A DNA stretch of 34,085 bases from Lentisphaeria bacterium (GCA_017504585.1 JAFVQX010000198.1:1-34085), one strand, 5' to 3'; positions 8,159-31,048 are shown, numbered from the stretch's first letter. Notes: generated by a model from the sequence alone, not told the origin. Made by a program: numbers and translations.

Positions 8159-9072
8159 GAGTTCTGATCACCGGAGGAGCCGGTTTTATCGGCAGCCACA
8201 TTGCTGAATACTTCAACGGCAAAGCCGAGATCCGCATTTTTGATAATCTGCGTACCGGCTACAAACACAATCTGGACGGTTTGGATGTGGAGTTTATTGA
8301 AGGCGATATTTGCGACCGTGCCGCCGTCAAAGCCGCCATGCAGGGCGTGGACTATGTATTCCATCTGGCAGCAATGGTCAGCGTGCCGGAATCCATGTTC
8401 AAACCCGGCGAGTGCGTGGATATCAACGTTCACGGCTTGCTGAATGTTCTGGAAGAAGCCGCCGCTGCCGGAGTCAAAAAACTCTGCTTCAGCACCAGTG
8501 CCGCCATCTACGGCGACAACCCGGTGGTGCCCAAGCTGGAAACCATGATCCCCGAACCCAAAAGTCCCTACGCCATTACCAAACTCGATGGCGAATACTA
8601 TTGCAATATGTTTACGAGAGAAGGCAAACTGCAGACCGCCTGTCTGCGTTACTTCAATGTCTTCGGGCCCCGGCAGGATCCCAAGAGTGCCTACGCCGCG
8701 GCAATCCCGATCTTTACTGCCAAGGCAGTTGCCAACGAAGATATCACCATCTATGGCGACGGCGAACAGACCCGGGACTTTATCTATGTAAAAGATATTG
8801 TGGAAGCCAATGTCTTTATGGCAATGAACGATTTTACCGGGGTGTATAATATAGCCTACGGCAAAAAAATCACCATCAACGATCTTGTTAAAGAGATCGT
8901 CAAAGTGACCAACTCCAAAAGCAAAGTCGTGCACCTGGATGAACGCCCCGGCGATGTGAAACACTCCATGGCAGGGGTGGAAAAACTCGCCTCCACCGGC
9001 TTCAAACCCAAACACACCTTCGCCGAAGGCATGGAAAAAACTATTGCGTTTTTCCAGAACAAAGCCAAGTAA
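8155..9072 (+). CDS. NAD-dependent UDP-sugar 4-epimerase (GalE/WbpP-type SDR)
   Basis: An extended short-chain dehydrogenase of 305 residues. It has the NAD-binding TGGAGFIGSH (6-15), STSAAIYG with S115, the catalytic YAITK (Y139, K143), RYFNVFGPRQ and TRDFIYVKD. It should interconvert UDP-Glc/UDP-Gal or UDP-GlcNAc/UDP-GalNAc through a 4-keto intermediate; the overall pattern recalls the WbpP/Gne group that handles N-acetylated sugars. The ATGA overlap with the hexosamine-kinase-like gene supports joint work in activated hexosamine metabolism. The stop codon is directly followed by the 10-bp repeat array at 9073. Exact specificity cannot be decided here. Confidence 0.85.
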   Translation: MRVLITGGAGFIGSHIAEYFNGKAEIRIFDNLRTGYKHNLDGLDVEFIEGDICDRAAVKAAMQGVDYVFHLAAMVSVPESMFKPGECVDINVHGLLNVLEEAAAAGVKKLCFSTSAAIYGDNPVVPKLETMIPEPKSPYAITKLDGEYYCNMFTREGKLQTACLRYFNVFGPRQDPKSAYAAAIPIFTAKAVANEDITIYGDGEQTRDFIYVKDIVEANVFMAMNDFTGVYNIAYGKKITINDLVKEIVKVTNSKSKVVHLDERPGDVKHSMAGVEKLASTGFKPKHTFAEGMEKTIAFFQNKAK

Positions 9073-9143
9073 ACGGTAACTTACGGTAATAAACGGTAAT
9101 TAACAGGAATTTGCCGACAGGCGTTTTCCGTTAGTTACCGTTT
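9071..9143. repeat. Decamer array with inverted repeat between galE-like gene and dxs (R3)
   Basis: From the last bases of the galE stop, 10-bp units are in strict phase: ACGGTAACTT (73-82), ACGGTAATAA (83-92), ACGGTAATTA (93-102), ACAGGAATTT (103-112, offsets from 9000). After GCC-GACA-GGC an inverted copy follows, so AAACGGTAACTTACGG (9071-9086) pairs with CCGTTAGTTACCGTTT (9128-9143) at 15 of 16 positions. The T-rich tail after the right arm makes it a possible terminator for the galE-like gene. The inverted copy runs into the dxs stop codon (TAA at 9137-9135). Confidence 0.75.
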
Positions 9144-11000
9144 TGTTGTTTCTGCTATGGCTCTGGCGATAGATTCTGTATCCAGCTGCAAGCTCTCGCG
9201 TAATTTATTTACTGCTCCGAAAGTTGGGGCTTGATCTGCTTTTATGCCCAATGAGTGCAATTTGTATGGCGTGGCAAGTTCGGCGGCACACCCGGCAGCT
9301 ATGGCACCGAAACCGGTGGAAGTCACATGATCTTCCAGCGTAAAAACGGACATAGTTTGCAAATCTTTCTGCAACTCATTTTTGTCAAACGGTTTGAGAA
9401 ATCTCACATTTACTACTTTGGCTGAAAGAGAGTATTTTTCTTGCAGCAAATCAGCTATTTCCAACGCCCGCACCGCTTCGGCACCTACGGCGTAGATCGC
9501 CAGATCGCTGCCCTGCCGCCAGACCGTTGAGCCGGGTTTTTCTATGGCGGAAATGGGGGGAATGTCGGAGCGTAAATCACTGCCGCTGCTGCCCCGGGGG
9601 TAGCGGATGACCACCGGAGAATGGAGTTTTACGGCGTACTCCAGCATAGGGTAAACTTCGGCTTCGCAAGCCGGCTGCATAACAGTTAAGTTGTTAAGGC
9701 CCAAGAGAAATCCCAAATCGTATATGCCGTGATGCGTGGGGCCGTCTTCCACCAATCCCGCCCGGTCAAGGGCAAAGATCACCGGCAGATCCATTAAACA
9801 AACATCGTGGAAAATGTTGTCCAGACTGCGCTGCATAAAAGTAGCATAAACAGCACAAATCACCGTTTTGCCCGCTGCCGCCAGGCCGGAAGAAAAAGTT
9901 ACTGCATGACTTTCTGCCATGCCCGCATCGTAAAAACGGTCGGGGAATTTTTGGGCAAAATCACTTAATCCCACCCCGGAAGTCATGGCGGCGACCACAG
10001 CAGAAATATCCGGATCTTTTTCCGCCAAACGGCAAGCAGCTTTGCCGAAAGCCGCCGAAAAGCCGGGAGTAGATTTTTTTATGGGCTTGCCAGTTGCCGC
10101 ATCAAAGGCACCCACGCCGTGAAAGCGTTCCGGAGCGGCCTCCGCCGGAGCGTAACCTTTGCCCTTTTGCGTAACTATATGGATTATCACCGGCCGGTCG
10201 TCCCGCTTGACCGCCGCAAACGCCCGTTCCATATCATGTATGTTATGCCCGTTGATGGGGCCAAGATAGCGTATGCCCAGTGATTCAAAGGGTTCGCTGG
10301 GGAGAAAGAGGTGTTTTGCCGTATCTTCCACATTTTTTATAAAATTGGTGATGCTTTGGGATTTGGGCAGCAGATTTATCATGGCTTTGGTGCTGTTTTT
10401 TATCCAGCGGTAGCGATAGCTGGTCATCATGCGGTTCAGCACTTTTGAGAGTGCCCCCACATTCTGCGAGATCGCCATTTTATTGTCGTTTAAGATAATG
10501 ACCAGATTTCTGCCGTAAGAGCGTACCTGATTCAACCCCTCCAGCGCCACACCGGAAGCGATGGCTCCATCGCCGGCAACGGCAATAACTTTGCTGCGGT
10601 CTTCGGGCTTTTGCGCAGCGCACATGCCCAACGCCGCCGAAATCGCCACTCCGGCGTGTCCGGCACCGTAGAAATCAAAAATACTTTCGTTGCGCACCGG
10701 AAATCCGCAGCAGCCATTGAACTCTCGCAAATGCTCAAATTCTTTCTGCCGCCCGGTCAAAAGTTTGTAAGAGTAGCTCTGATGACCCACATCCCAGATG
10801 ATGCGTTCAGCTGGCAGATCAAAACTCCGCAGCAGCGCTATGGTCAGCTCCACCGTGCCCAGATTGGGCGCCAAATGACCGCCCCCGCAGGAAACTTGCG
10901 AAATAATGCGCTGGCGCAATTCGCCGGCAAGTTTGCCGAGTTCTTCCGCAGTAAGAGGCCGCAAGTCAGCGGGCTTGGAAATTTTATCAAGAATACTCAT
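9135..11000 (-). CDS. dxs: 1-deoxy-D-xylulose-5-phosphate synthase
   Basis: Dxs condenses pyruvate and glyceraldehyde 3-phosphate with thiamine diphosphate, the first step of the MEP isoprenoid pathway. The 621-residue length is canonical. Visible are GGGHLAPNLG (39-48), DVGHQSY (70-76), the TPP motif GDGAIASG...NDN (143-150, 171-173), GAGHAGVAI, DAGMAESHAV and the C-terminal transketolase domain ending in a TFGAVNKLRESL segment. The loop DRAGLVEDGPTHHG is one residue shorter than the common DRAGxVGxDGxTHxG. The frame is open to 11114, but the ATG at 11000 gives the normal N-terminus. The predicted promoter puts the mRNA start almost on this ATG. ispH of the same pathway is at 26633. Confidence 0.95.
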   Translation of the reverse strand: MSILDKISKPADLRPLTAEELGKLAGELRQRIISQVSCGGGHLAPNLGTVELTIALLRSFDLPAERIIWDVGHQSYSYKLLTGRQKEFEHLREFNGCCGFPVRNESIFDFYGAGHAGVAISAALGMCAAQKPEDRSKVIAVAGDGAIASGVALEGLNQVRSYGRNLVIILNDNKMAISQNVGALSKVLNRMMTSYRYRWIKNSTKAMINLLPKSQSITNFIKNVEDTAKHLFLPSEPFESLGIRYLGPINGHNIHDMERAFAAVKRDDRPVIIHIVTQKGKGYAPAEAAPERFHGVGAFDAATGKPIKKSTPGFSAAFGKAACRLAEKDPDISAVVAAMTSGVGLSDFAQKFPDRFYDAGMAESHAVTFSSGLAAAGKTVICAVYATFMQRSLDNIFHDVCLMDLPVIFALDRAGLVEDGPTHHGIYDLGFLLGLNNLTVMQPACEAEVYPMLEYAVKLHSPVVIRYPRGSSGSDLRSDIPPISAIEKPGSTVWRQGSDLAIYAVGAEAVRALEIADLLQEKYSLSAKVVNVRFLKPFDKNELQKDLQTMSVFTLEDHVTSTGFGAIAAGCAAELATPYKLHSLGIKADQAPTFGAVNKLRESLQLDTESIARAIAETTKR

Positions 11001-20287: not shown

Positions 20288-21034
20288 ATGCCCAAAAAAG
20301 TTCTTATAACCGGCGGCGGCAAACGCATCGGTGCGGCACTGGCAAAAGCCTTTGCCCGAAACGACTGGCTCCTTACGCTGCATGTAAACAACTCTCTTGC
20401 CGAAGCCATGGAGTTGATAAACACGCTGAAAAACCCCGGACTGCACCAAGTTACTCAATGCGATTTCAGCGACCAAACCAAGCGCCGGGAGTGGCTGCAA
20501 ACGCTGGGCAAGTTCGATCTGATCATCTGCAACGCCAGCTGCTACCGTCTGACCGGGCGCGATGAAACAGAAACATTGGAAAACCGTCAGCGCTACTGGC
20601 AGGTAAATTATCACTCGGTGCTGGAACTTATAGAGCTGCAGTACAAAAATCTGCCCTCCGATCTGCCGGCATCGGCATTGATCATGCTGGATTGCGATGT
20701 ATTGACTTCTTCCGGCGGCATAAAAGAGTTTACAGAACCGCCGCCGGGGGTGGACAGCTATCTGGCAAGCCGCATTGCCCTTGCCCGCCGTGTGCCGGAG
20801 CTGGCAAGAAACTTTGCCCCCCATCTGCGGATAAATGCGATCGCTCCCGGCCCGGTACTCCCCCCGGCAGATTGCACCACCGGCGGCATGACCGTGATTC
20901 TGGATAGAGTACCCATGCACCAGCCGGTCATGGTGCAGGATATAGTAAATACCGCACTTTACCTTGCGCAGACACCTTCCATGACCGGCAACATAATCGC
21001 CGTAGATGGCGGAATGCATCTGGGCGTAAAATAA
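20288..21034 (+). CDS. SDR-family oxidoreductase, pteridine-reductase-like, with altered active site
   Basis: This 248-residue classical short-chain dehydrogenase has the dinucleotide motif TGGGKRIG (8-15), whose KR favours NADPH, then NAS (82-84), NAIAPGP and the C-terminal MTGNIIAVDGG. The general pattern resembles pteridine reductases and FolM-type dihydromonapterin reductases. At the active site the usual YxxxK reads Y158-LAS-R162, so the catalytic lysine is an arginine. A proton-relay change is expected, but activity may persist. It starts 1 nt after PBP2, so it is the last gene of the mreCD operon, although no functional link is known. It is followed by the R1 repeat region. Confidence 0.75.
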   Translation: MPKKVLITGGGKRIGAALAKAFARNDWLLTLHVNNSLAEAMELINTLKNPGLHQVTQCDFSDQTKRREWLQTLGKFDLIICNASCYRLTGRDETETLENRQRYWQVNYHSVLELIELQYKNLPSDLPASALIMLDCDVLTSSGGIKEFTEPPPGVDSYLASRIALARRVPELARNFAPHLRINAIAPGPVLPPADCTTGGMTVILDRVPMHQPVMVQDIVNTALYLAQTPSMTGNIIAVDGGMHLGVK

Positions 21035-21079
21035 CCAAACCGGTTTTACCGTGCCGCCAACCGGTGCGGCATTGTGCGT

Positions 21080-21125
21080 GGCGGCTGGCTTGTCCTCCGT
21101 AGCCTCCGGCGTAGGAGGATGCCGC
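21080..21125 (+). repeat. 46-bp repeat, copy 1
   Basis: This block is identical, as its reverse complement, to 28826-28871, 7.7 kb away. It contains opposed TCCTCC and GGAGGA segments that can form an imperfect hairpin. Confidence 0.9.
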
Positions 21126-21164
21126 TGTACTCCGCATTCGCGGGCGATAGTGTGCGTGGCGGCT

Positions 21165-21200
21165 GTCGGACAGGTCGGACAGGTCGGACAGGTCGGACTG
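21165..21200 (+). repeat. Four tandem 9-bp units GTCGGACNG
   Basis: GTCGGACAG occurs three times and GTCGGACTG once, in exact 9-bp phase. The same unit occurs as two sets of three in R2 on the other strand (29243-29269 and 29310-29336). Confidence 0.9.
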
Positions 21201-21308
21201 GCATTGCCGCCTTACTGTTGCAACATTGTGTGTATGCCGCGTGGCATTACCCGGCGTATAGCTCGCCGGAGCGGAGCGTCTACCGGCTGCAGCGGGCTTT
21301 GCCCGCTT

Positions 21309-21348
21309 CCGTTAATTACCGTTATCTACCGTTATTTCCCGTTCAACA
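21309..21348 (+). repeat. Decamer array, four 10-bp units
   Basis: Units CCGTTAATTA, CCGTTATCTA, CCGTTATTTC and CCGTTCAACA are in strict 10-bp phase right after the GCGGGC hairpin. They are nearly the same sequence as the R3 units (reverse complement of ACGGTAATTA and relatives) and occupy the same place in the module order as the CCCATA-type array in R2. Confidence 0.85.
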
Positions 21349-21433
21349 TCGCGCGGACTTACAGGCGTGCGCACCACGACAGTATATAGTATGCCGTATA
21401 TCGTATGGGGTTATGGGGCAGCTTTGCGGACTG

Positions 21434-22810
21434 TTATTTTTTCCGCAGTCTGGCAACGAACATGGAGTCGCTGTTGTCCCGGGCGCCGCTGATTTTCAGC
21501 ATTCCGCTGGTGAGGTCGCCGGTCAGGGGATCAGCGAAACTTTCCAGAACAAATTCGCTGTGACGCCGGAGAAAATCGGCGATCATTGCCGAGTTTTCGC
21601 TTTCAAAGACACTGCATGTGGCGTAAACCAGTACGCCGCCCGGGCGGAGGGCGGGCAGGACATTTTCCAATACATTTTTTTGGATAAGGTTGATCTTTTC
21701 CACTTCATCGGGGGTGGATGACCAACGGCCGTCGGGGTTGCGCCGCCATACTCCGGAACAGCTGCACGGCGCGTCGATCAATATGCCGTCAAAACTGCCG
21801 CTTTTGCGGGGCGGAACTTTATTGCCGTCCCACGGACGGGTTTCGATATTGGGAAAACCGCTGCGGCGGGCGCGTTTTTTCAAATCTTCCAGCTTATAGG
21901 CGCGTATGTCGCCGGCTACGACTTTGCCGGTGCGTTCCATAAGTTCTGCCAGTGCCAGAGTTTTGCCGCCGGCACCGGCACAGCAATCCCACCAGCGTTC
22001 GCTCCGCCGTGGAGCGCACACTTGCGCAATGACTTGCGAGGCAAGATCCTGTACTTCGATGCGTCCGGCGCGGTAGGCTTCCAGCGTATACAAATTCACG
22101 CTGCCGGCAGTTACTGCCAGCGCTTGCGGCAGCCGGGGGTGGCGTTTTACGGTCAAACCGGCTCCGGTCAGTTCGCAGATGACTTGCGCCGGGTCGGCAT
22201 TCTGTATCCGCAGCCACAGCGGCGGCCGTGCCGAAAGCATTTGATAATATGCCTTCTGATCGGGCATAGTCTGCAGCAGTTCCAAGCTCCACTCCGCTTG
22301 CAGAGCTTCCCACGCCGGTTCGGTGGCGGGATCTGCTTTGCAGTGCCGGGCAAACTCCATGAAACGGCTGCGGAGTCTTTCCGGATCGGCGGCAATTTCC
22401 GGATCGGGCGCCGGTATGGAGGGCAATTCAAACTCTCTGGTCAGCAGATGGTGTGCTGCTTCGGGCGGAAGATTTTCCAACTGCCACGCTCCAGCCAGGA
22501 GCATGGCTGCGGTGCGTCCGGCAAGCTGACGGCTTCTGCCCGCAGCCAGTGCGGCGCACTCCTCTTCGGTCAGCAGCAGCTTCAGCCAACCGTAAAAGCG
22601 GAAAAATGCAAAAATACTTTCGCTGAAAAGCCGCCGGTCGCGGGAGCCGAAACAGCGGTTCTCCCGCCAATAGCTGCTTAAAAACCGGTCAAGGGCACGT
22701 TTTTCGGCAAAAACAGCCGTTACCGCAAGGTCAAAAATATTCCGCAGATTACGCAGTTGCGTATAGAGCCGCTTATCCTGATTGGCAGTCGCCGCCGAAG
22801 GTTTTTTCAT
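21434..22810 (-). CDS. RsmB-like RNA (cytosine-C5)-methyltransferase, second copy
   Basis: The 458-residue protein has an N-terminal NusB-like helical region (about 20-125, with FGSRDRRLFSESIFAFFRF), a variable linker and a C-terminal Rossmann methyltransferase domain. SAM binding is at CCAGAGGK (276-283), the motif IV cysteine is in DAPCSCSG (C349), and the nucleophile is in YATCS (C399). It is an rRNA or tRNA m5C methyltransferase by family. It differs considerably from RsmB at 4318-5601, so the two probably modify different sites. Its start lies 7 nt after the ybbR stop, so it is in an operon with recJ-cdaA-ybbR, and its 3' end adjoins the R1 repeats. Confidence 0.85.
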   Translation of the reverse strand: MKKPSAATANQDKRLYTQLRNLRNIFDLAVTAVFAEKRALDRFLSSYWRENRCFGSRDRRLFSESIFAFFRFYGWLKLLLTEEECAALAAGRSRQLAGRTAAMLLAGAWQLENLPPEAAHHLLTREFELPSIPAPDPEIAADPERLRSRFMEFARHCKADPATEPAWEALQAEWSLELLQTMPDQKAYYQMLSARPPLWLRIQNADPAQVICELTGAGLTVKRHPRLPQALAVTAGSVNLYTLEAYRAGRIEVQDLASQVIAQVCAPRRSERWWDCCAGAGGKTLALAELMERTGKVVAGDIRAYKLEDLKKRARRSGFPNIETRPWDGNKVPPRKSGSFDGILIDAPCSCSGVWRRNPDGRWSSTPDEVEKINLIQKNVLENVLPALRPGGVLVYATCSVFESENSAMIADFLRRHSEFVLESFADPLTGDLTSGMLKISGARDNSDSMFVARLRKK

Positions 22811-22817
22811 CGTCCGC

Positions 22818-23807
22818 TTACTCCTGCTGGACGGTTACTTTTGCCGTGGCTGGCTGGAATTTCTTTACCGAAAGCCCCGGCGTGGGATTGGTTATGGTTA
22901 TGGAAACCGGCAGATTATAGGTGCCGGGTTTGTCGATCTTATCCAGATTTATGGATGCATTGATTTCCCGGCTGTGCATCCTTGCCAGCGTACCCCGGGG
23001 GCCTCCGGCAATTACGGTCACCGTTTCCGGCTCCAGACTGGTCACCTGAAACTTCCGGGTACGTTCCGCACTTTGGATGATCAGAAGCGGCACGGCGCGG
23101 AAAGTATGAGTGGTCATGGCTTTGACCACTTCCACCTGGGCTTCCACCTCGCTGCGGTCCGCGCGGGTGCCGGGGGGCGTGCGCAAGTTGCAGCGGTATT
23201 CAAAACTGTCGGTCACCTGTTCATCGATGGGTATGGGGGTGGTGAAAATCTCCTGGATTGAATCCAACACCTTTGCCGGACCGCTGATCAGCGCTTTGGC
23301 AGGCACAAATTTGACACTGGCGATCTCGTAATCCTGTGGCAGTTTGCCCAGCGAGTCGTAGCGTGGCCGGATCGGCAGATGTTTGGAGATCACCGGCTCC
23401 AGATCCAGCACCAGATCCCGGGGCGAAATGGATTCGACCTTGACTCCGTAGACCAGACCGCTGATATCTTCCCGCCGCAGCCGCAGCTGATAGGGTTCGC
23501 CGGCAATAAAGCCCTCGCCATTGACTTCGGTGCGGATGCGCAATGCCCCCGGATCGATCTCATCAAGAGCTTTGGCATTGCCGCTTAAAGTTACTTTTAC
23601 CCGGCGGACTGTGTTGTCGCTCAACGCCAGATTGGCGGGCAACTCTATGGTCACCGGCACGCTGGTAAAGCTCTTTTCCCGCTTTTCGCTGGTGCGGGGC
23701 GCGATCGCCAGATAGAGCAGCAGCGCCAGAAACAGCGCCACTAATTTGCGCCAGAAATCCCGGCGGATGAATTCTTTGATGATTTGCCAACGGGTATTTT
23801 CCTGCAT
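22818..23807 (-). CDS. YbbR-domain protein (CdaA regulator, CdaR-like)
   Basis: This 329-residue protein has one N-terminal membrane span (about 19-36, WRKLVALFLALLLYLAIA) followed by extracytoplasmic YbbR beta-domains of about 80-90 residues each, seen as repeating patterns such as VPVTIELPANLAL, LRLRREDISGL and FRAVPLLIIQSAE. In Firmicutes the YbbR protein CdaR binds and regulates the diadenylate cyclase CdaA, and the gene order cdaA-ybbR is the same here. The ATG at 23807 is 1 nt past the cdaA stop and has GGGAGG 9 nt upstream; the earlier GTG at 23825 would include that site in the gene, so it was rejected. glmM, often third in the cluster, is not here. Confidence 0.87.
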   Translation of the reverse strand: MQENTRWQIIKEFIRRDFWRKLVALFLALLLYLAIAPRTSEKREKSFTSVPVTIELPANLALSDNTVRRVKVTLSGNAKALDEIDPGALRIRTEVNGEGFIAGEPYQLRLRREDISGLVYGVKVESISPRDLVLDLEPVISKHLPIRPRYDSLGKLPQDYEIASVKFVPAKALISGPAKVLDSIQEIFTTPIPIDEQVTDSFEYRCNLRTPPGTRADRSEVEAQVEVVKAMTTHTFRAVPLLIIQSAERTRKFQVTSLEPETVTVIAGGPRGTLARMHSREINASINLDKIDKPGTYNLPVSITITNPTPGLSVKKFQPATAKVTVQQE

Positions 23808-23808
23808 A

Positions 23809-24696
23809 TTATTGATCCTCCCCACTGCCGCTGGTGGTTTTTTCCGGCTCTTCGTCGCCGTGGAAGTTCACTTCGCCTTCGGGATCATCCAAAGCTCCGA
23901 GAATATCGGTGAGGGTCTCGCTGGTTTCGTCGTTGCTCATCAGCAGCTTGTTCAGCTCATTTTCCAGCGATTTGCCCGACAATCCGCGCATGATCGCGCC
24001 GCGGCACGCCACGCTGATATCGCCGGTTTCCTCGCTGACGACCACTACTGCTGCGTCGGTTTCTTCGGTGATCCCCAGCGCCGCCCGGTGGCGGGTCCCC
24101 ATCGTGCGCGACAAATTTGCATCCCGCGACAGCGGCAATATCGCCCGCGCCGCCACAATGCGGTCGTTGCGCACGATTATTGCCCCGTCATGCAGGGGCG
24201 AATTGGGGTAAAAAATCGATTGGATCAAAAGATTATTGAGCTTGCTGTCCAGCTTGATGGCGTCTTCCACGATCGCCCGCATACCGATGCGCCGCTCGAT
24301 GACGATGATCGCTCCGCAGCGGCGGCTTGCCATGCTGTTTACTGCCGAAACCAGCTCGTGGATGGTTTCTTTTTTGCGGTTGCGCTGAAAAAACGTATAA
24401 CTGCCCAGCTGGGCAAAGGCACGGCGCAATTCCGGCTGAAAGATCACAATGATCGTAAATGCCATCAGCGACATAAAATTGTCCAGCAGCCAGCGAACCA
24501 CCGTAAATCCCAGACTGTTGGCTATGATCGACAGCGCCAGAAACGCCACCACCAGCCCCGCCAGCACGTTCACCGCACGGGTCCCCCGCAGGTAATAAAG
24601 CACCTTGTAAATAACAAATGCGATCAGCAGGAATTCGATCGCTATGCGGACGAAATCCCAGACTGAACTCCAGTTTATTTCCAGATCCCAGAGCAT
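23809..24696 (-). CDS. cdaA: Diadenylate cyclase CdaA
   Basis: CdaA makes cyclic di-AMP, a second messenger tied to osmolyte balance and cell-wall state. The 295-residue protein has three N-terminal membrane spans (about 13-33, 43-61 and 66-86) followed by the cytoplasmic DAC domain with the catalytic DGA (170-172, in NSPLHDGAIIV) and RHR (202-204, in GTRHRAALGIT). An acidic C-terminal tail of about 50 residues (EETSETLTDILGALDDPEGE-like) is not part of the core domain. The stop is 1 nt from the ybbR start. recJ ends 34 nt upstream of its start. No c-di-AMP phosphodiesterase is in the window, though RecJ shares the DHH fold with those enzymes. Confidence 0.95.
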   Translation of the reverse strand: MLWDLEINWSSVWDFVRIAIEFLLIAFVIYKVLYYLRGTRAVNVLAGLVVAFLALSIIANSLGFTVVRWLLDNFMSLMAFTIIVIFQPELRRAFAQLGSYTFFQRNRKKETIHELVSAVNSMASRRCGAIIVIERRIGMRAIVEDAIKLDSKLNNLLIQSIFYPNSPLHDGAIIVRNDRIVAARAILPLSRDANLSRTMGTRHRAALGITEETDAAVVVVSEETGDISVACRGAIMRGLSGKSLENELNKLLMSNDETSETLTDILGALDDPEGEVNFHGDEEPEKTTSGSGEDQ

Positions 24697-24730
24697 ACGG
24701 TCACCTCGCTTTATGCGAAACTATACGGTC

Positions 24731-26446
24731 TTAATACGAGAGTCTTACATCGCAAATATTCAACTGCACCCGGTCGGTATTCATGTAATTATTGATCTGG
24801 GGCGTGGCAAGCACATCCACCGTGCCATGCATGAATTCTTCGGGCAGGAATTTGAATGCAATAAACTCGATCTGATTATGAAATCTGTCTTGCAGAATAC
24901 CCCGGGTATGGCGCTGACCCACCGGGAACGCCCGCACAACTTCCAACTCGTTGAAGCGGTAGACCGGTTTCTGATTGCCGTGGCCGAAAGGCGCCAGCTC
25001 GTTAAGGTAATCAAAGAATTCCGAATCCAGCTCTTTGATGCCGCACTCGCCATCGTACGCGGTGAATTCCTCCAGATCCGACTCGTTCATCTGCGCCCGG
25101 ACGTGCTGTTCAAATTCCTGATAAAATTGATCGATCAAATCGGCTTTGACCCCGATACCTACTGCCATGGGGTGCCCGCCATAACGCTCCAGCAAAGGTG
25201 CCGTCCGGCTCAAAGCTTCCACCAGATTCAACGAACCTATGCTGCGGCCGGAACCGTATGCCACGCCGTCATCCTGAATACTCAAAACAATAGTCGGGCG
25301 GTTGAAATCCCGCGCCAGACGCGATGCCACGATACCGATCACCCCCTGATGCCAGTTGTGACCTGCCACCAGAAGTGTGTAATTTTCCTGCAGCTGACCG
25401 TTGTTTTCCAACTGGGTGCGGGCTTCCTGATAGATCTCCTGCTCTTTATCCTGACGGGTGCGGTTAAAGTTTTCCAGCTCCGAAGCGTAGCGGTAGGCTT
25501 CCACAATATTATCTGACTCCAGCAGCGACAGCGCCACGTTGGCATCGCCCACCCGCCCCGCGGCGTTGATCCGCGGCGCCAGCTTAAAGGTGATATCCGA
25601 CGGCGAAAGATCGTTTTTGAGCTTGCTGGATTCGATCAGCGCCCGGATGCCCGGACGGAACTGCTTTTTGAGTATATCTATACCGTACTTGACCATAATG
25701 CGGTTTTCGCCCAGCAGCGGCACGATATCGGCTACTGTACCCAGCGCCACATAATCCAGCACATCTTCCAGATGGGTGGTAAAACCGCCCAGATTATGCT
25801 CTCTGCCGTATTTGATAAAGGCGTGGGAGAGCTTGAACGCCGTACCGGCGCCCGAAAGAATGTGCATATCTTCCAGCTCCGGATAGATCTTGGGGTTGAT
25901 CACCGCCAGCGCCCGGGGCAGCTCGTTGCTGGCCTCGTGGTGGTCGGTAATGATCGTATCGATATTCATATTGACCGCTTCGGTCACGGCATCCACGCTG
26001 GTTATGCCGCAGTCTACGGTGATCAGCACCTGACAGGGACCGAATATCGCCAGCGCCTTGTGCAGACTTTCCGGAGTAAAGCCGTATCCGTCGTCGAAGC
26101 GGTGGGGAATGAAGCTGCTGACTTTTGCCCCGTTGCGGCGCAGCACCAGCGACAAAAGTGCGCTGCCGGTGATACCGTCAGTATCGTAATCCCCGTGGAT
26201 AAGGATGTGTTCGTTGTTTTTGATCGCCTGCCAAATACGTTCGGCAGCTTTTTCGATCCCCGGGAAGCGATATGGATCGCTTAAATCCCGGAGCTGGGGA
26301 TTTAAAAACCCCGCTACCTGTTTTGGTGTGATCTCCCGAGCGGCAAAATAAAGCGCGATCGGCCGTGGCAGATTATGCTGCCTGGTCAATTCTTCAACTT
26401 CGCTTGAAATATTTGCCCGTATCAATTTCCATTTTTTAGAGCCCAT
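24731..26446 (-). CDS. recJ: Single-stranded-DNA-specific exonuclease RecJ
   Basis: RecJ degrades single-stranded DNA 5' to 3' in recombination and mismatch repair. The 571-residue length is normal. DHH-domain metal motifs are GDYDTDG (85-91), VDCGIT (144-149), TDHHEA (167-172) and GTVADIVPLLGENR, followed by the DHHA1 region with APRINAAGRVGDA and YGGHPMAVGIG. The ATG at 26446 has AGGA 6 nt upstream; a TTG two codons earlier sits too close to that site. It is the first gene of the unit recJ-cdaA-ybbR-RsmB-like. Confidence 0.95.
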   Translation of the reverse strand: MGSKKWKLIRANISSEVEELTRQHNLPRPIALYFAAREITPKQVAGFLNPQLRDLSDPYRFPGIEKAAERIWQAIKNNEHILIHGDYDTDGITGSALLSLVLRRNGAKVSSFIPHRFDDGYGFTPESLHKALAIFGPCQVLITVDCGITSVDAVTEAVNMNIDTIITDHHEASNELPRALAVINPKIYPELEDMHILSGAGTAFKLSHAFIKYGREHNLGGFTTHLEDVLDYVALGTVADIVPLLGENRIMVKYGIDILKKQFRPGIRALIESSKLKNDLSPSDITFKLAPRINAAGRVGDANVALSLLESDNIVEAYRYASELENFNRTRQDKEQEIYQEARTQLENNGQLQENYTLLVAGHNWHQGVIGIVASRLARDFNRPTIVLSIQDDGVAYGSGRSIGSLNLVEALSRTAPLLERYGGHPMAVGIGVKADLIDQFYQEFEQHVRAQMNESDLEEFTAYDGECGIKELDSEFFDYLNELAPFGHGNQKPVYRFNELEVVRAFPVGQRHTRGILQDRFHNQIEFIAFKFLPEEFMHGTVDVLATPQINNYMNTDRVQLNICDVRLSY

Positions 26447-26476
26447 TTTCAATCCTTTTTAAATTGTCATAATGGC

Positions 26477-26485
26477 AATATAACA
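26477..26485 (-). promoter_or_regulatory. Extended -10 promoter of recJ
   Basis: Minus-strand GATGTGTTATATTG contains TATATT (26482-26477) preceded by TGT. The predicted start is near 26470, giving a 24-nt leader with the AAGGATT site. No good -35 is seen. The pattern matches those of rsmD, dxs and tRNA-Ser. Confidence 0.5.
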
Positions 26486-26522
26486 CATCTTTAACGGCAA
26501 GGCAATGTTTAAACGCGTAATA

Positions 26523-26550
26523 TTGACATTTTTTTATCGAAAAACATATT
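26523..26550 (+). promoter_or_regulatory. Upstream promoter of ispH
   Basis: TTGACA (26523-26528), a perfect -35 consensus, is 16 nt from CATATT (26545-26550). A second promoter follows at 26574, so ispH may have two starts. Confidence 0.4.
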
Positions 26551-26573
26551 TTGCGGTTGCAATTTCTGCGATT

Positions 26574-26582
26574 TGGTATAAT
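26574..26582 (+). promoter_or_regulatory. Extended -10 promoter of ispH
   Basis: TGGTATAAT is a perfect extended -10 (TGn plus TATAAT). The predicted start is near 26589, about 44 nt before the ATG at 26633. No Shine-Dalgarno sequence is evident before that ATG. Confidence 0.6.
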
Positions 26583-26632
26583 ATTACCCCACCGATCAAG
26601 CGGTGATCTGTTAAATCAGAAATTTGTATCTT

Positions 26633-27517
26633 ATGGATAAATCTGTCAGTTCAGAAAAAAAACTTTTTGTTGCCGACCCCCACGGCTTCTGCAATGGGGT
26701 CAAGCGTGCCCTGAAAATCGTGGAAGATCTTCTGGAACAGGGTGCGGTCGATATATACATATATAACGATATCGTGCATAACTCTTTTGTGGTAAATGGT
26801 CTGAAAGAGCGCGGCGTAAAGTTTGTGACCACTCTTGATGAACCCGCCCCCGGCAGTCACATCGTCTGGAGCGCTCATGGTGTGTCGCCGGAGCTGGAGG
26901 CCCTGGCCCGCAGCAGAGCTTTGCAGATAACCGACGCCACCTGTCCGCTGGTCAGCCGGGTGCATGAACTGGCCAAACAATATCTGCAAGCCGGTGCCCG
27001 GGTGATTTTTGCCGGACATGCGGGGCATCCGGAAACGGATGGGGTGCTGGGCTGCGGCAATATAGATCTGGTCGGCAGGGAGGAAGATTGCGAAAAACTC
27101 CCGGAACTTTCTGACCGGAAAAAAACAGTTATGCTCACCCAGACCACCTGGTGTCAGGAAGATGTGGAAAAAATCATACGCGCCTTGCAGAAACGTTTTC
27201 CGGATATTGAGTGTATATCCAATATTTGTTATGCCACCAGCGAGCGCCAGCAGGCGGTGCGGACGCTGATCGGACAGCATAAAGTGGAGTATCTTGTGGT
27301 GATCGGTTCGGCGCACAGCTCCAACGCCCGCAGATTGTGCGAGGTCGCCCAAAGTTGCGGAAGCCGTGGGATCCTGATCAACGACCCCGGTGAGATCCGT
27401 CAGCTTGACCTGACGGAAGTTGCCCGCATCGGGATCACTGCCGGAGCTTCCACCCCGGAGATACTGCTGGAAAAAGCCATTAAAATATTGAATGATATGG
27501 GGTTTGAAAATGCGTGA
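26633..27517 (+). CDS. ispH: 4-hydroxy-3-methylbut-2-enyl diphosphate reductase IspH
   Basis: IspH is the last MEP-pathway enzyme, a 4Fe-4S protein making IPP and DMAPP. The 294-residue product has the three cluster cysteines in HGFCNGV (C20), ATCPLV (C104) and SNICYAT (C199). The substrate-binding residues are in DIVHN (H50), SAHGVS (H82) and AGHAGHPETDG (H132, catalytic E134). The C-terminus has GSAHSSNARRLCEVA and TAGASTPE. The usual TICxAT reads NICYAT, a mild change. The ATG at 26633 was chosen over an in-frame TTG at 26624. Its stop lies 8 nt into galK, so the two genes form an operon. Confidence 0.95.
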   Translation: MDKSVSSEKKLFVADPHGFCNGVKRALKIVEDLLEQGAVDIYIYNDIVHNSFVVNGLKERGVKFVTTLDEPAPGSHIVWSAHGVSPELEALARSRALQITDATCPLVSRVHELAKQYLQAGARVIFAGHAGHPETDGVLGCGNIDLVGREEDCEKLPELSDRKKTVMLTQTTWCQEDVEKIIRALQKRFPDIECISNICYATSERQQAVRTLIGQHKVEYLVVIGSAHSSNARRLCEVAQSCGSRGILINDPGEIRQLDLTEVARIGITAGASTPEILLEKAIKILNDMGFENA

Positions 27518-28670
27518 CTTGATAAAGGTTTTTCAGGAAAAATTCAACGCCAGCCCGACTGCGGGGGCTTCGGCACCCGGCAGATTGGAGATCCTGGGCA
27601 ATCACACCGATTACAACGAAGGCATCGTTTTGAGCTGCGCGGTGGATCAGAGGACTTCGGTGGTCATGGCCGCCAACCACAGCAGCATGGTGCAGCTTTA
27701 TGATCTGCGCGCCGGAGAAAGCGCTGTTTTTGATGTGCAAAATCTGACAAACACCATTCGACCCAAATGGGCAAATTATCCGGCGGGAGTGGTGTCAGAA
27801 CTGCAAGCGCGGCAGTTGAGCGTCGGCGGTTTTGATGCGGTCATTTCCAGCAATGTACCGCTGTCGGCGGGCATGTCCAGTTCGGCAGCGTTCGAAACCG
27901 CCATACTTTTCGGTTTGATGCAGCTTTATAAACTTGATGTGACCAGCGCCGATGCCGCCCGCATCGGTCAGGGGGTGGAAAACAACTTTCTGGGGGTAAA
28001 AACCGGGTTGCTCGACCAATTCAGCAGTATTTTCGGGGTCAGCAATTCCTTTATTCTCTCCGATTTCCGCACGGTGGAAGTTCTGGGAACCATTCCCATG
28101 ACCGGCAACGCCGGTATTCTGGTAGTCAACAGTATGCAGAAACACGATCTGGTGGACAGCGCATACAACGAGCGCCGTGCCGCTTGCGAAAGCGCCGCCG
28201 CCAAACTCGCCGCCCGGCACCAGACAGTAAAAACTTTGCGGGATGTATCCGGCGAACTTCTGGAAAGCGAAAAATCTCTGCTGACAGATATTGAATACCG
28301 CCGCGCCAAACATGTGGTGCAGGAGTGCGAACGGGTGCGGCGTGCCGTGGAATACCTGAAAAACAACGATTTGCAGTCATTCGGCGCCTTGTGGTGGGAG
28401 TCACACGAAAGCAGTCGGGTGAATTTCGAAAATTCCACCCCCGCGCTGGATAAGATCGTAGAGTTTTCCCATCAACTGCCGGGAGCGCTGGGGGCTCGTC
28501 TTTCCGGCGGAGGCTTCGGCGGCATAACCGTGCATCTGGTGCAAAACGATCACCTTGCCGAGTATCAGGATAAAATAACCGGACTTTATAAAGACTACTG
28601 CAATATCACTCCCGAAACAATAGTATGCCACCCGGGGAAGGGGGCAGTCAGCGAAACGCTGACTGCGTGA
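27510..28670 (+). CDS. galK: Galactokinase-like GHMP kinase
   Basis: A 386-residue GHMP-family sugar kinase that should phosphorylate galactose, or a related sugar, at C1. Motif 1 is GRLEILGNHTDYNEG (24-38), motif 2 PLSAGMSSSAA (117-127), the catalytic aspartate is in GLLDQFSS (D169), and motif 3 is LSGGGFGGIT (331-340). Standard galactokinases have GEHTDYN; here the glutamate is asparagine (N31), which may affect sugar binding. The ATG at 27510 was chosen; an in-frame ATG at 27492 lies further inside ispH. The last eight residues (AVSETLTA) and the stop are encoded by a repeat hairpin and its GTGAAG linker, so the original C-terminus may have been replaced. No galT or mutarotase is nearby. 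Confidence 0.85.
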   Translation: MRDLIKVFQEKFNASPTAGASAPGRLEILGNHTDYNEGIVLSCAVDQRTSVVMAANHSSMVQLYDLRAGESAVFDVQNLTNTIRPKWANYPAGVVSELQARQLSVGGFDAVISSNVPLSAGMSSSAAFETAILFGLMQLYKLDVTSADAARIGQGVENNFLGVKTGLLDQFSSIFGVSNSFILSDFRTVEVLGTIPMTGNAGILVVNSMQKHDLVDSAYNERRAACESAAAKLAARHQTVKTLRDVSGELLESEKSLLTDIEYRRAKHVVQECERVRRAVEYLKNNDLQSFGALWWESHESSRVNFENSTPALDKIVEFSHQLPGALGARLSGGGFGGITVHLVQNDHLAEYQDKITGLYKDYCNITPETIVCHPGKGAVSETLTA

Positions 28671-28751
28671 AGTCCGCCTGCGGCGGGTGAAGATGTGAAG
28701 AGCTTGCTTTTAACAAAGCAAGCGTGAAGCAGCTCGCTTACGCGAGTAAGG
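28644..28751 (+). repeat. Array of hairpins joined by GTGAAG
   Basis: Four palindromes are separated by GTGAAG hexamers. The first is GCAGTCAGCG-AAA-CGCTGACTGC (28644-28666), then GTGAAG at 28667. The second is CCGCC-TGC-GGCGG (28674-28686), then GTGAAG at 28687 and 28695. The third is GCTTGCTTT-TAAC-AAAGCAAGC (28702-28723), then GTGAAG at 28724. The fourth is CTCGC-TTAC-GCGAG (28733-28746), followed by GTAAGG. Loops and stems differ, only the linker is constant. The first hairpin and linker include the end of galK and its TGA stop. No T-runs follow, so ordinary termination is unlikely. Confidence 0.85.
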
Positions 28752-28825
28752 TCGTTGACTGGTGGAATAAATATTGCCCGCTTGCCACGGCGTAGTGTAA
28801 CGAAGCCGGGCGTATGCGGCGAAAG

Positions 28826-28871
28826 GCGGCATCCTCCTACGCCGGAGGCTACGGAGGACAAGCCAGCCGCC
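28826..28871 (-). repeat. 46-bp repeat, copy 2 (inverted)
   Basis: The reverse complement is identical to 21080-21125. The flank continues with the CATTGTGCGTG block also found beside copy 1, with one extra G at the junction. Confidence 0.9.
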
Positions 28872-28906
28872 CACGCACAATGTTGCGCCAGTAAGGCGGC
28901 AATACT

Positions 28907-28956
28907 CTCATACCCTCCCATAATTTCTCATACCCTCTCATAATTTCCCAAAAGCC
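28907..28956 (+). repeat. Decamer array, five 10-bp units
   Basis: Units CTCATACCCT, CCCATAATTT, CTCATACCCT, CTCATAATTT and CCCAAAAGCC are in strict 10-bp phase. The consensus is CYCATANYYT. Confidence 0.85.
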
Positions 28957-29040
28957 GCCATCTATCCTATTGCCCGCGAATGCGGCGAAAGGCGGCATAC
29001 GATATAACGTCGTAAGGCGAACACCTGTTTGCCGCGCGAT

Positions 29041-29080
29041 AGATTATGGGAGAGTATGGGAATGTATGAGAAAATATGGG
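29041..29080 (-). repeat. Decamer array, four 10-bp units, next to GCGGGC hairpin
   Basis: Plus-strand units AGATTATGGG, AGAGTATGGG, AATGTATGAG and AAAATATGGG are in 10-bp phase, the reverse complement of the CCCATA type. They adjoin the hairpin at 29083-29097, exactly as the CCGTTA-type array adjoins the same hairpin in R1. Confidence 0.85.
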
Positions 29081-29093
29081 AAGCGGGCAAAGC

Positions 29094-29200
29094 CCGCTGC
29101 AGCCGGTAGACGCTCCGCTCCGGCGAGCTATACGCTGGGTATTGCCCCCGCTGCAGCCGGTTGACGCTCCGCTCCTGCAAGCTATACGCTGGGTATTGCC
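29094..29200 (-). repeat. Tandem 53-bp module, two copies
   Basis: Copies at 29094-29146 and 29148-29200 differ at a few bases (GGTAGACG/GGTTGACG, CGGCGAGC/CTGCAAGC). A third copy, reverse complement, is at 21243-21295 in R1. Confidence 0.85.
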
Positions 29201-29210
29201 ACGCGGCATA

Positions 29211-29344
29211 CACACAATGTTGCAACAGTAAGGCGGCAATGCCAGTCCGACCCGTCCGACCAGTCCGACAGCCGCCACACACAATGTTGCAACAGTAAGG
29301 CGGCAATGCCCGTCCGACCTGTCCGACCAGTCCGACAGCCGCCA
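29211..29344 (-). repeat. Tandem 67-bp unit, two copies
   Basis: Copies at 29211-29277 and 29278-29344 differ at two positions. Each contains the 10-bp palindrome TGTTGCAACA and three 9-bp CNGTCCGAC units (29243-29269, 29310-29336). A degenerate part-copy lies at about 28875-28903, and a single relative with four 9-bp units is in R1. Confidence 0.88.
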
Positions 29345-29414
29345 CGCACACTATCGCGCTGGCTTGGCGGCACATTATGATTATGGTGCAGTATGCCGGA
29401 TAAGCTCTGTGGGG

Positions 29415-30209
29415 TCAGAAACTCATATTCCAGTTTTTGCTGTCCGGGCCGGTCAGGATCTTGAGTGCCCCGGGCCAGGATTTGCCTTTGGAGTCTGCCC
29501 AGGTTTCGAACTGCTTCTGGTTTACGCTTTCCACATGGCCGTCAATGAAGCACACATTGGCGTGCCCGCTGGAGTTATCCAAAGGTTCGCCGCCGTGCCG
29601 CATGGAAAAACGGCGGTATTTTGCCTCGGTGGCGATCGCACCGCTCCCCACCGACCCCTGTTCGCGGTGACGGTTGTCGGCAAAAAGAGCCACCTTGTCC
29701 GGATTGTTGATCCCGGCGTGGGTCTTTATGCCCCAACCGGTATCTTCGTACCCGCTGCTGGGGTTTGAGGTACAATAAGGGTTGATGCCGTATTGCGGCA
29801 CCTTGAATGTACCGGTAAAAACATCCTGCTCAATGCCTTCGGTGGGGCTGGGGGTATGGTCTTTGTCAAAGCCGCCGGTTTCGGAAGGACACTCAAAAAG
29901 CGTACCGGGGGCTGATTGGTGATAAAATGCTTTGTCGCAATATTGCCCGAGCTGTTTGATCCAGATGTTGGTTTCGGTTGCATGGCTGTATGCCGGCAGA
30001 TAATCCTGATTATCGGCACTGTATAACGCCGAAATAACACCGTACTGTTTGAGATTGCCCATACAGCTGCCGGATTTGGCACGCTCCCGTGCCGCCGACA
30101 ACGCCGGCAGCAGCATTGCCGCCAGAATGGCGATGATAGCGATTACCACCAGCAGTTCGATCAAGGTAAATGGTTTTTTCCGGGAAAGGATACTTGCAAC
30201 TCTTCTCAT
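29415..30209 (-). CDS. Prepilin-type pseudopilin-like protein with H-X9-DG-type C-terminus (B)
   Basis: A 264-residue protein with the type IV pilin/type II secretion N-terminus: a short basic leader [13 protein letters not shown], then [31 protein letters not shown] with the conserved E18 (fifth residue after cleavage). The usual glycine before the cleavage site is proline here. The remainder is the extracytoplasmic processing-associated domain type ending in [23 protein letters not shown]. Such proteins are very numerous in Lentisphaerota and Planctomycetota, and their function is unclear. The ATG at 30209 has AAAGGAG 6 nt upstream; an in-frame TTG at 30215 was rejected. It is the last gene of the operon from 34085, 50 nt after its paralogue, and possibly has an additional promoter. 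Confidence 0.88.
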
Positions 30210-30235
30210 AGTCAACTCCTTTGCTTGCTTGGGTT

Positions 30236-30263
30236 AGTATATTTTCTCCGGTGGATTGGTTAA
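30236..30263 (-). promoter_or_regulatory. Possible internal promoter for pseudopilin B
   Basis: Minus-strand TTAACC (30263-30258) and TATACT (30241-30236) are separated by 16 nt, overlapping the stop of pseudopilin A. The -35 is poor, so this is tentative. Confidence 0.3.
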
Positions 30264-31048
30264 AACGATACTTCAGTTGCCCCTTTGATGTAGCCCAGCA
30301 ATATCTGATAACCCGGCGAATAGTCGCTGGGGCCTTCCCACCAATTCTGTACTCCATCGTAGGTCAAACTCTCGGCATGACCGTCAATAAATACCACATT
30401 GCCGTAACCTTTCGGCGATTCAGCTTCCGGATCGCCGCCGTGACGCAGCGCCAGACGGATGGTTGTGGTTTTGCCGAAATTATCCATAACATGATTGCCG
30501 CGGTGCCGGTTGTCGCCAAAGATCATGATCCGGTCCGGATTGTTGATACGGGCGTGAGTATGGCAGTCGATCCCCCACTTGGTCTTGTACTTGTAAGTAC
30601 AATAGGGGTTGATGGCATATTGCGGATAGGTCTGAAATTCCCCTTTGAATCCGCCCAGACTGCTTTTGTAAGTTCCATAACCATCGCCTTCGCCGGGGCA
30701 TCGCCAGACTGTTGCTGCCGGAGCACCGGATCTCCAGCCGGAATCCGGCGAAACATAGTTGCCGATTTCATACGCCCACGGCGCAGTCCTTACCGAAGGA
30801 TAATCTCCGGAGTAGGGCAGATAATCCTGATTATCTCCGGAATAAAGCTCTTTGGCAACGCCCAGCTGTTTAAGGTTGCTCAAGCAGCCGGACTGCTTGG
30901 CACGCTCCCGTGCTGCCGACAACGCCGGCAGCAGCATTGCCGCTAAAATGGCAATGATGGCGATCACCACCAGCAGTTCGATCAGCGTGAAGCCCATGGG
31001 CTTCACTCCAGCGTGCTGGAGTGAAGGAGTGTTCGTTGATCTTTTCAT
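30260..31048 (-). CDS. Prepilin-type pseudopilin-like protein with H-X9-DG-type C-terminus (A)
   Basis: A 262-residue paralogue of the next gene. The leader is [19 protein letters not shown], then cleavage before F20 ([31 protein letters not shown], conserved E24). The body shares with B the segments LKQxGV, NQDYLP, YAINPYC (YGINPYC in B), [14 protein letters not shown] and [26 protein letters not shown]. It should be inserted in the cytoplasmic membrane, processed by a prepilin peptidase and exposed outside. Codons 9-21, just before the mature part, consist of GTGAAG/CTTCAC palindromes like those at 28644-28751. The start follows the upstream stop by 11 nt with AGGTGG before the ATG, so it is co-transcribed with the unrecognised 679-residue protein. 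Confidence 0.88.
30987..31026. repeat. GTGAAG/CTTCAC palindromes within pseudopilin A leader codons
   Basis: Plus strand reads GTGAAG-CCCATGGG-CTTCAC, a perfect 20-bp palindrome (30987-31006), then TCCAGC-GT-GCTGGA and GTGAAG, so CTTCACTCCAGC (31001-31012) pairs perfectly with GCTGGAGTGAAG (31015-31026). Two perfect palindromes thus share the middle CTTCAC. The coding sense is [13 protein letters not shown]. Confidence 0.9.

Follow-up and report, generated by a model that had tools for sequence, protein, structure and literature searches.

Two of the convergent gaps in a 34,085-nt contig from a Lentisphaeria bacterium (GCA_017504585.1 JAFVQX010000198.1:1-34085, hereafter the window) hold mosaics of short repeated modules, R1 and R2, which a sequence-only reading had singled out as composite non-coding elements built from the same parts in inverted orientation and shuffled order. 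The contig is one of 213 in a fragmented metagenome-assembled genome of an uncultured gut bacterium of the Lentisphaerae (2.94 Mb, 81% complete; labeled G000). The named records nearest to its RecJ, at 92-96% identity, belong to Lentisphaerae metagenome bins SIG78, SIG95, SIG86, and SIG91, and more remote RecJ relatives are from Victivallaceae/Lentisphaeria, several of them from the gut of sheep, goat, and roe deer.

Layout of the Two Composites

R1 spans 21050-21420 on the plus strand, in the gap where an SDR gene (ending at 21034) and an rsmB-like gene (ending at 21434) converge. It carries module A (21088-21124), a hairpin cargo of the form CCTCC-GTA-GCC-TCC-GGC-GTA-GGAGG; the left arm of a frame (21131-21164), made up of a CCGCATTCGCGGGC hairpin and GATAGTGTGCGTGGCGGC; the slot-1 cargo (21165-21198), a nonamer array of 3.8 copies of GTCGGACAG that appears as C9 in the module orders below; module D, the right frame (21200-21231; GCCGCCTTACTGTTGCAACATTGTGTG); module F (21244-21292), which is the 53-bp module of the sequence-only reading; module G, a GCGGGCTTTGCCCGC hairpin (21292-21306); the slot-2 cargo (21309-21343), a decamer array of CCGTTATTTA; and module I, a tail starting ATCGCGCGG (21348-21394), all on the plus strand. 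R2 occupies 28644-29385 on the minus strand, in the convergent gap between galK, which ends at 28670, and a pseudopilin-like gene at 29415. By ascending coordinate, it starts with module K (28644-28748), a run of four hairpins with GTGAAG spacers that lies on the plus strand and overlaps the 3′ end of galK. The remaining modules are all on the minus strand: module J (28775-28818), the module A hairpin serving as slot cargo (28827-28863), frame module D (28876-28905), a slot-1 array of TATGRGARNN decamers (28906-28947), module I (28995-29040), a slot-2 array of CCCATANTYT decamers (29045-29082), the module G hairpin (29083-29097), module F in a 54-bp tandem duplication (94%; 29097-29199), and a 67-bp tandem duplication (97%) in which frame D with its nonamer cargo stands twice (29210-29343). 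The 9-bp arrays, the decamer arrays, and both tandem duplications are all confirmed.

That R1 and R2 use common modules on opposite strands is borne out by four inverted arms (123 nt at 94%, 75 nt at 93%, 62 nt at 92%, and 60 nt at 97%). An identical block of 46 bp had been reported; the exact inverted identity is real, but its length was underestimated, as the longest exact matches start at 21254 and 21191 and run for 57 and 56 bp, respectively. The boundaries given earlier likewise stand except for the left edge of R2, which lies at 28644 rather than 28752 with module K included. R1 and R2 are nevertheless not the related pair that they had been taken for: the best relatives of R1 are on contigs 52, 70, 197, and 66, and its module F is identical to the copy on contig 197, so that neither composite is the duplicate of the other. 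Two features of the flanking genes may be recorded here. GalK ends in ...CHPGKGA-VSETLTA*, with its final codons and stop supplied by the first K hairpin (28644-28670), while its relatives terminate shortly after CHPGAGA. On the other side of R2, two tandem pseudopilin-like genes (29415-31048) have a duplicated 135-nt stretch in common (81%).

A Genome-Wide Family with a Fixed Module Order

Searches of the genome, on which all copy counts of modules and composites rest, gave 72 matches to R1 and 130 to R2, corresponding to about 40 composites with lengths of roughly 200-850 bp, many of them at contig ends. A genome-wide family of composite non-coding elements had been proposed from R1 and R2, and these numbers uphold it; far from occurring nowhere else, the modules are found in some 40 places. 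Some of the contig breaks in these metagenome bins are explained by the composites. Gene calling with a simple codon-usage score, rather than a full gene finder, placed no gene in any composite, and Rfam at the gathering threshold reported only a tRNA in the window. A plasmid search with R1, a phage search with R2, and an IMG/VR search with the frame sequence returned no matches, and a literature search on composite repeats with the motif sequences and Lentisphaerae terms found none described for the phylum Lentisphaerae.

Module borders are sharp, and the module atlas gives a recurrent order of (A) J (K′) frame C9 D F G decamers I, in many cases tandemly repeated; on contigs 52 and 197, J C9 D F I is present twice. 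The canonical adjacencies C-D, D-F, and F-G number 84 against 14.2 ± 3.4 expected from shuffling within composites (n = 2000; highest shuffle, 27), with only 3 reversed. All 128 A, D, F, and I modules are on the strand of their composite and all 12 K modules on the other, a result that expresses agreement rather than direction because composite strand was assigned by the majority of A, D, F, and I. The idea of a shuffled order does not survive these counts. The modules run A C9 D F G dec I in R1 and C9 D C9 D F F G dec I dec D A J K′ in R2 (dec, decamer array), so the segment C9-D-F-G-decamer-I is collinear in both, as it is in nearly all other copies, and the difference in layout is limited to the site of the TCCTCC hairpin (A) and the slot arrays. 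What looked like another order in R2 is a different cut through a tandem series, together with two local duplications and a moved A hairpin. Composites begin and end with differing modules, and neither constant ends nor fixed terminal repeats occur among them. Module K is nearly identical in 11 copies (contigs 13, 15, 19, 109, 122, 149, 169, 190, and 191 are listed), most of which sit at contig ends; the copy in the window is the divergent one.

Slots, Cargo, and Exchange between Copies

Within this fixed order, two kinds of slot carry variable contents. Slot 1, between GGCGGC and GCCGCCTT (GCCGCC), holds one of five fillings: the 9-bp array (GTCGGACNG)n, decamers of the TATGRGARNN, TTGGGARNNN, or TAACGG type, or hairpin A. 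Slot 2, after the GCGGGC hairpin, holds a decamer array of the CCGTTA, CCCATA, or CCCAA type. Cargo swaps are seen inside identical frames, and the modular build recognized earlier is supported. Arrays in slot 2 are C-rich in 32/32 cases and arrays elsewhere are G-rich in 30/36 (p ~1e-13), a strict polarity which means that the two slot kinds carry arrays in inverted orientation; in R2, the arrays at 28906-28947 and 29045-29082 are predicted to pair as one long stem. Array type matches between neighboring slots in 12 of 23 comparisons upstream (about 7 expected from the margins) and in 9 of 13 downstream (about 5 expected), which is suggestive only. Congeners have the same architecture with other slot words, such as GTAGGACAT in G002. 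A stand-alone, unstranded decamer palindrome (TAACGGTAA array ... TTACCGTT; 9070-9145) occupies the third and only other convergent gap of the window, and its decamer recurs elsewhere as slot cargo. A G-quadruplex reading of the GGGA decamers is not general, as the CCGTTA and GTCGGAC arrays are without G runs.

Among 22 D-F units, variants less than 10 bp apart are linked with an r2 of 0.225, which drops to about 0.06 at more than 50 bp (background, 0.048), and the distances between units in D and in F are uncorrelated (r = -0.02). The decay and the lack of correlation fit short-tract recombination or gene conversion among copies, a process that they support but do not prove. The sequence-only reading had the family growing by exchange between modules, and linkage at background level within about 50 bp agrees with exchange at that scale.

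The Module A Hairpin across the Order

Hairpin A reaches well beyond the composites. Of 137 genomes of the order, 36 have the pattern TGTCCNCCGNNGC..GCNNNGGNGGAT, and none has its reversed control. The free base pair of the stem appears as T-A, G-T, G-C, C-G, and A-T (with one T-G), and among the matches listed it is paired in 41 of 52 distinct variants against 24.5 expected (p 5e-5), with GNA/GNA flanking the inner stem in nearly all variants. These compensatory changes and the kept GNA/GNA suggest either selection on the hairpin, whether in RNA or in single-stranded DNA, or copying by a step that depends on its formation. Its spread in the order, its GNA/GNA loop, and its compensatory changes make it a sharply defined target for study in its own right. 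Further occurrences are varied. A second version (TGTCCGCCGTAGCTTTATGCGAAGGCGGAT) lies on contigs 116, 139, 183, and 191 of G000, outside the listed composites. G116, from another family of the order, has 30 near-identical hairpins of a CCGCC..GGTGG version, several of them equally distant from contig ends. Three IMG/VR viral contigs (L145, L146, and L147) have module A once each, and in G003 a tandem array on contig 45 (L099) with a unit of ~174 bp that includes module A, in at least 4 copies, adjoins a composite.

Genomic Location and Predicted Folding

Composites favor the downstream side of genes. With genes called by the codon-usage score, 45/58 of the gene ends that face them are 3′ ends (binomial p 3e-5), and over the window and ten other stretches, modules are present in 5 of 14 convergent gaps of at least 50 bp, 1 of 37 tandem gaps, and none of 18 divergent gaps. 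All three convergent gaps of the window contain an array or a composite. Six of the 14 convergent gaps have neither module nor array, and the element is therefore not a general terminator. The sites vary between species: a composite lies 3′ of rsmB in G003 as well, with none there in G001, G002, or G004, and 3′ of galK there is no composite at L110, L111, or L120 and only a TACGGATTTG array before the contig end at L112. The genomes compared are 81-94% complete, and absence of a gene from them is not absolute.

Recombination between R1 and R2, raised earlier as a route to inversion of the recJ block, is plausible given 57 bp of exact inverted identity. In all congeners read, the neighbors on the far side of R1 and R2 are different ones, and an inversion breakpoint therefore cannot be assigned. 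Synteny breaks at R1 and R2 were also considered as proof of rearrangement hot spots and rejected, because the other neighbor of recJ differs in relatives too, with no composite there in G000. As for folding, R2 is predicted to fold better than shuffled sequences (z of -3.7 and -7.2, from 20 shuffles only).

Origin of the Repeat and Rival Explanations

To the observed family, module order, slots, cargo set, array polarity, and convergent-gap bias we add an account of origin that we hold to be probable. R1 and R2 belong to a composite, non-coding interspersed repeat of this Lentisphaerae lineage with about 40 copies, which would grow by tandem duplication and by short-tract recombination at its frames. 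Each copy combines imperfect palindromic frames (GATAGTGTGCGTGGCGGC / GCCGCCTTACTGTTGCAACATTGTGTG) with a core (F, the GCGGGC hairpin, a decamer array, and I) and optional J and K in one conserved order, and the frame slots carry interchangeable cargo, whether the GTCGGACNG array, a decamer array of one of three types, or the conserved hairpin A. Frames and arrays would multiply by tandem duplication and slippage, enlarging the copies, and the GC-rich frames that the copies have in common would be the sites of short-tract recombination or gene conversion by which cargo is exchanged and the copies are homogenized; the family is best read as species-homogenized. Persistence downstream of genes may reflect tolerant space, and the hairpins perhaps end or insulate convergent transcripts, effects on transcription that such structures make plausible. 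Copies may first have reached new sites through a transposase working in trans or through recombination-driven copying; as anticipated, no transposase was found in or beside the composites. A more ambitious version, in which a dedicated mechanism moves non-coding cassettes (9- and 10-bp arrays and GNA/GNA hairpins) in and out of palindromic frames with fixed polarity, strikes us as improbable. If true, it would amount to a gene-free cassette system shaping transcription ends or chromosome structure.

Several points weigh against growth by duplication and short-tract recombination. The split-half controls of the linkage analysis are modest, with r = 0.31 (p 0.01) for the halves of D and r = 0.16 (p 0.11) for those of F, and the weak control within F indicates limited power; recurrent mutation could also explain part of the linkage decay. 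No empty-site pair within one species is available, leaving insertion, target duplication, and excision unseen. Whole R1 folds no better than shuffles (z -0.77), which rules it out as an unusually stable RNA. Finally, the module seeds were derived from R1 and R2, so other modules may be missed, and the genome searched is itself a fragmented and incomplete assembly.

Among the rival explanations, a selected regulatory device, either a bidirectional terminator or a nucleoid-protein site whose one-helical-turn arrays would be putative binding sites, draws on the convergent-gap bias, the filling of every convergent gap in the window, the array polarity, the compensatory changes in module A, and the predicted pairing of the R2 arrays. 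We regard it as unlikely, given the six empty convergent gaps, the lack of site conservation among congeners, and the fact that tolerance of insertion would yield an equal bias. Mobilization in trans of an element resembling a miniature inverted-repeat transposable element by an unrelated insertion sequence would account for dispersed copies with high secondary structure and for module K abutting or entering the end of galK directly, and the sites do differ among congeners (where gene neighbors differ too and each species has one genome). The absence of fixed terminal repeats and the different modules at composite starts and ends make this quite unlikely. The palindromes, the composite build, and the 3′ location would equally suit a system of repetitive extragenic palindromes (REP) and bacterial interspersed mosaic elements (BIME) moved by a REP-associated tyrosine transposase (RAYT). 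G000 has one truncated IS200-like Y1 transposase and G003 an intact one, but no Y1_Tnp was found in G001, G002, G004, or G013, incomplete genomes that all carry modules. The GTAG tag, moreover, is not kept in module A (GTAG, GCAG, GAAG, GGAG), and the tetramer forms part of a GNA/GNA loop within the stem instead of an unpaired end, so that a RAYT origin appears very unlikely. No intact RAYT was found in G000, where a fragment of the truncated transposase lies on contig 183 (L089, 83-364).

The remaining two rivals have almost nothing left to recommend them. An integron-like cassette array with a site-specific integrase, suggested by the alternation of palindromic frame and cargo, is largely refuted: no protein of the genus exceeds the integron-integrase cutoff, with sub-threshold matches like those in all 14 controls, the cargo is without genes, and the frame core GTTGCAAC departs from the attC box, whose consensus is GTTRRRY. 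An artifact of binning and assembly is just as hard to credit. Many contigs do terminate inside composites, but contigs can be expected to end in repeats, R1 and R2 are both internal to a single contig with normal genes, and separately assembled congeners share the architecture. For the composite repeat with exchangeable cargo, the kept framework, strict polarity, and free exchange of arrays offer a readable record of mosaic growth, and the congener genomes make that record testable.

Relation to Known Repeat Systems

Constant palindromic parts alternating with variable ones are a likeness to integron cassette arrays, from which the composites differ in lacking an integrase above the cutoff and in having gene-free cassettes. 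Neisserial intergenic mosaic and Correia elements are likewise mosaics between genes, with repeated blocks bounded by inverted repeats, and have defined inverted ends of 26 bp (cited in PMC3049150) that the composites are without. REP/BIME systems also form composite groups of short hairpin-forming palindromes downstream of genes in species-specific versions (PMC2817692, PMC3733652). Here, in contrast, no linked RAYT and no conserved GTAG/CGTC tag was found, tandem arrays serve as cargo, and, where REPs alternate in orientation, A, D, F, and I keep to one strand with only K opposite. The BOX elements of Streptococcus pneumoniae and S. suis are modular, with a fixed module order and variable module copy number, span 67-637 bp, form RNA stem-loops, are enriched between convergent genes, and are without a transposase of their own (PMC3049150). 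The composites share the fixed order, the varying internal module number (the 54- and 67-bp duplications in R2), the modular build, the convergent-gap enrichment, and the lack of any transposase found. BOX and RUP have defined ends and target duplications (PMC3049150), whereas composite ends vary here without terminal inverted repeats, and the slots hold interchangeable 9- and 10-bp arrays; no sequence relation to BOX is known. The organization is closest to that of pneumococcal BOX and of REP/BIME. Composite interspersed repeats have so far been best described in Proteobacteria and streptococci, and the repeat of R1 and R2 is best read as a new one of the BOX/BIME kind, a member of neither group since the defining features tested (defined ends for one; RAYT, tag, and alternating orientation for the other) were not found, and one that shares with BOX its fixed module order and with REP/BIME its hairpin-forming palindromes downstream of genes.

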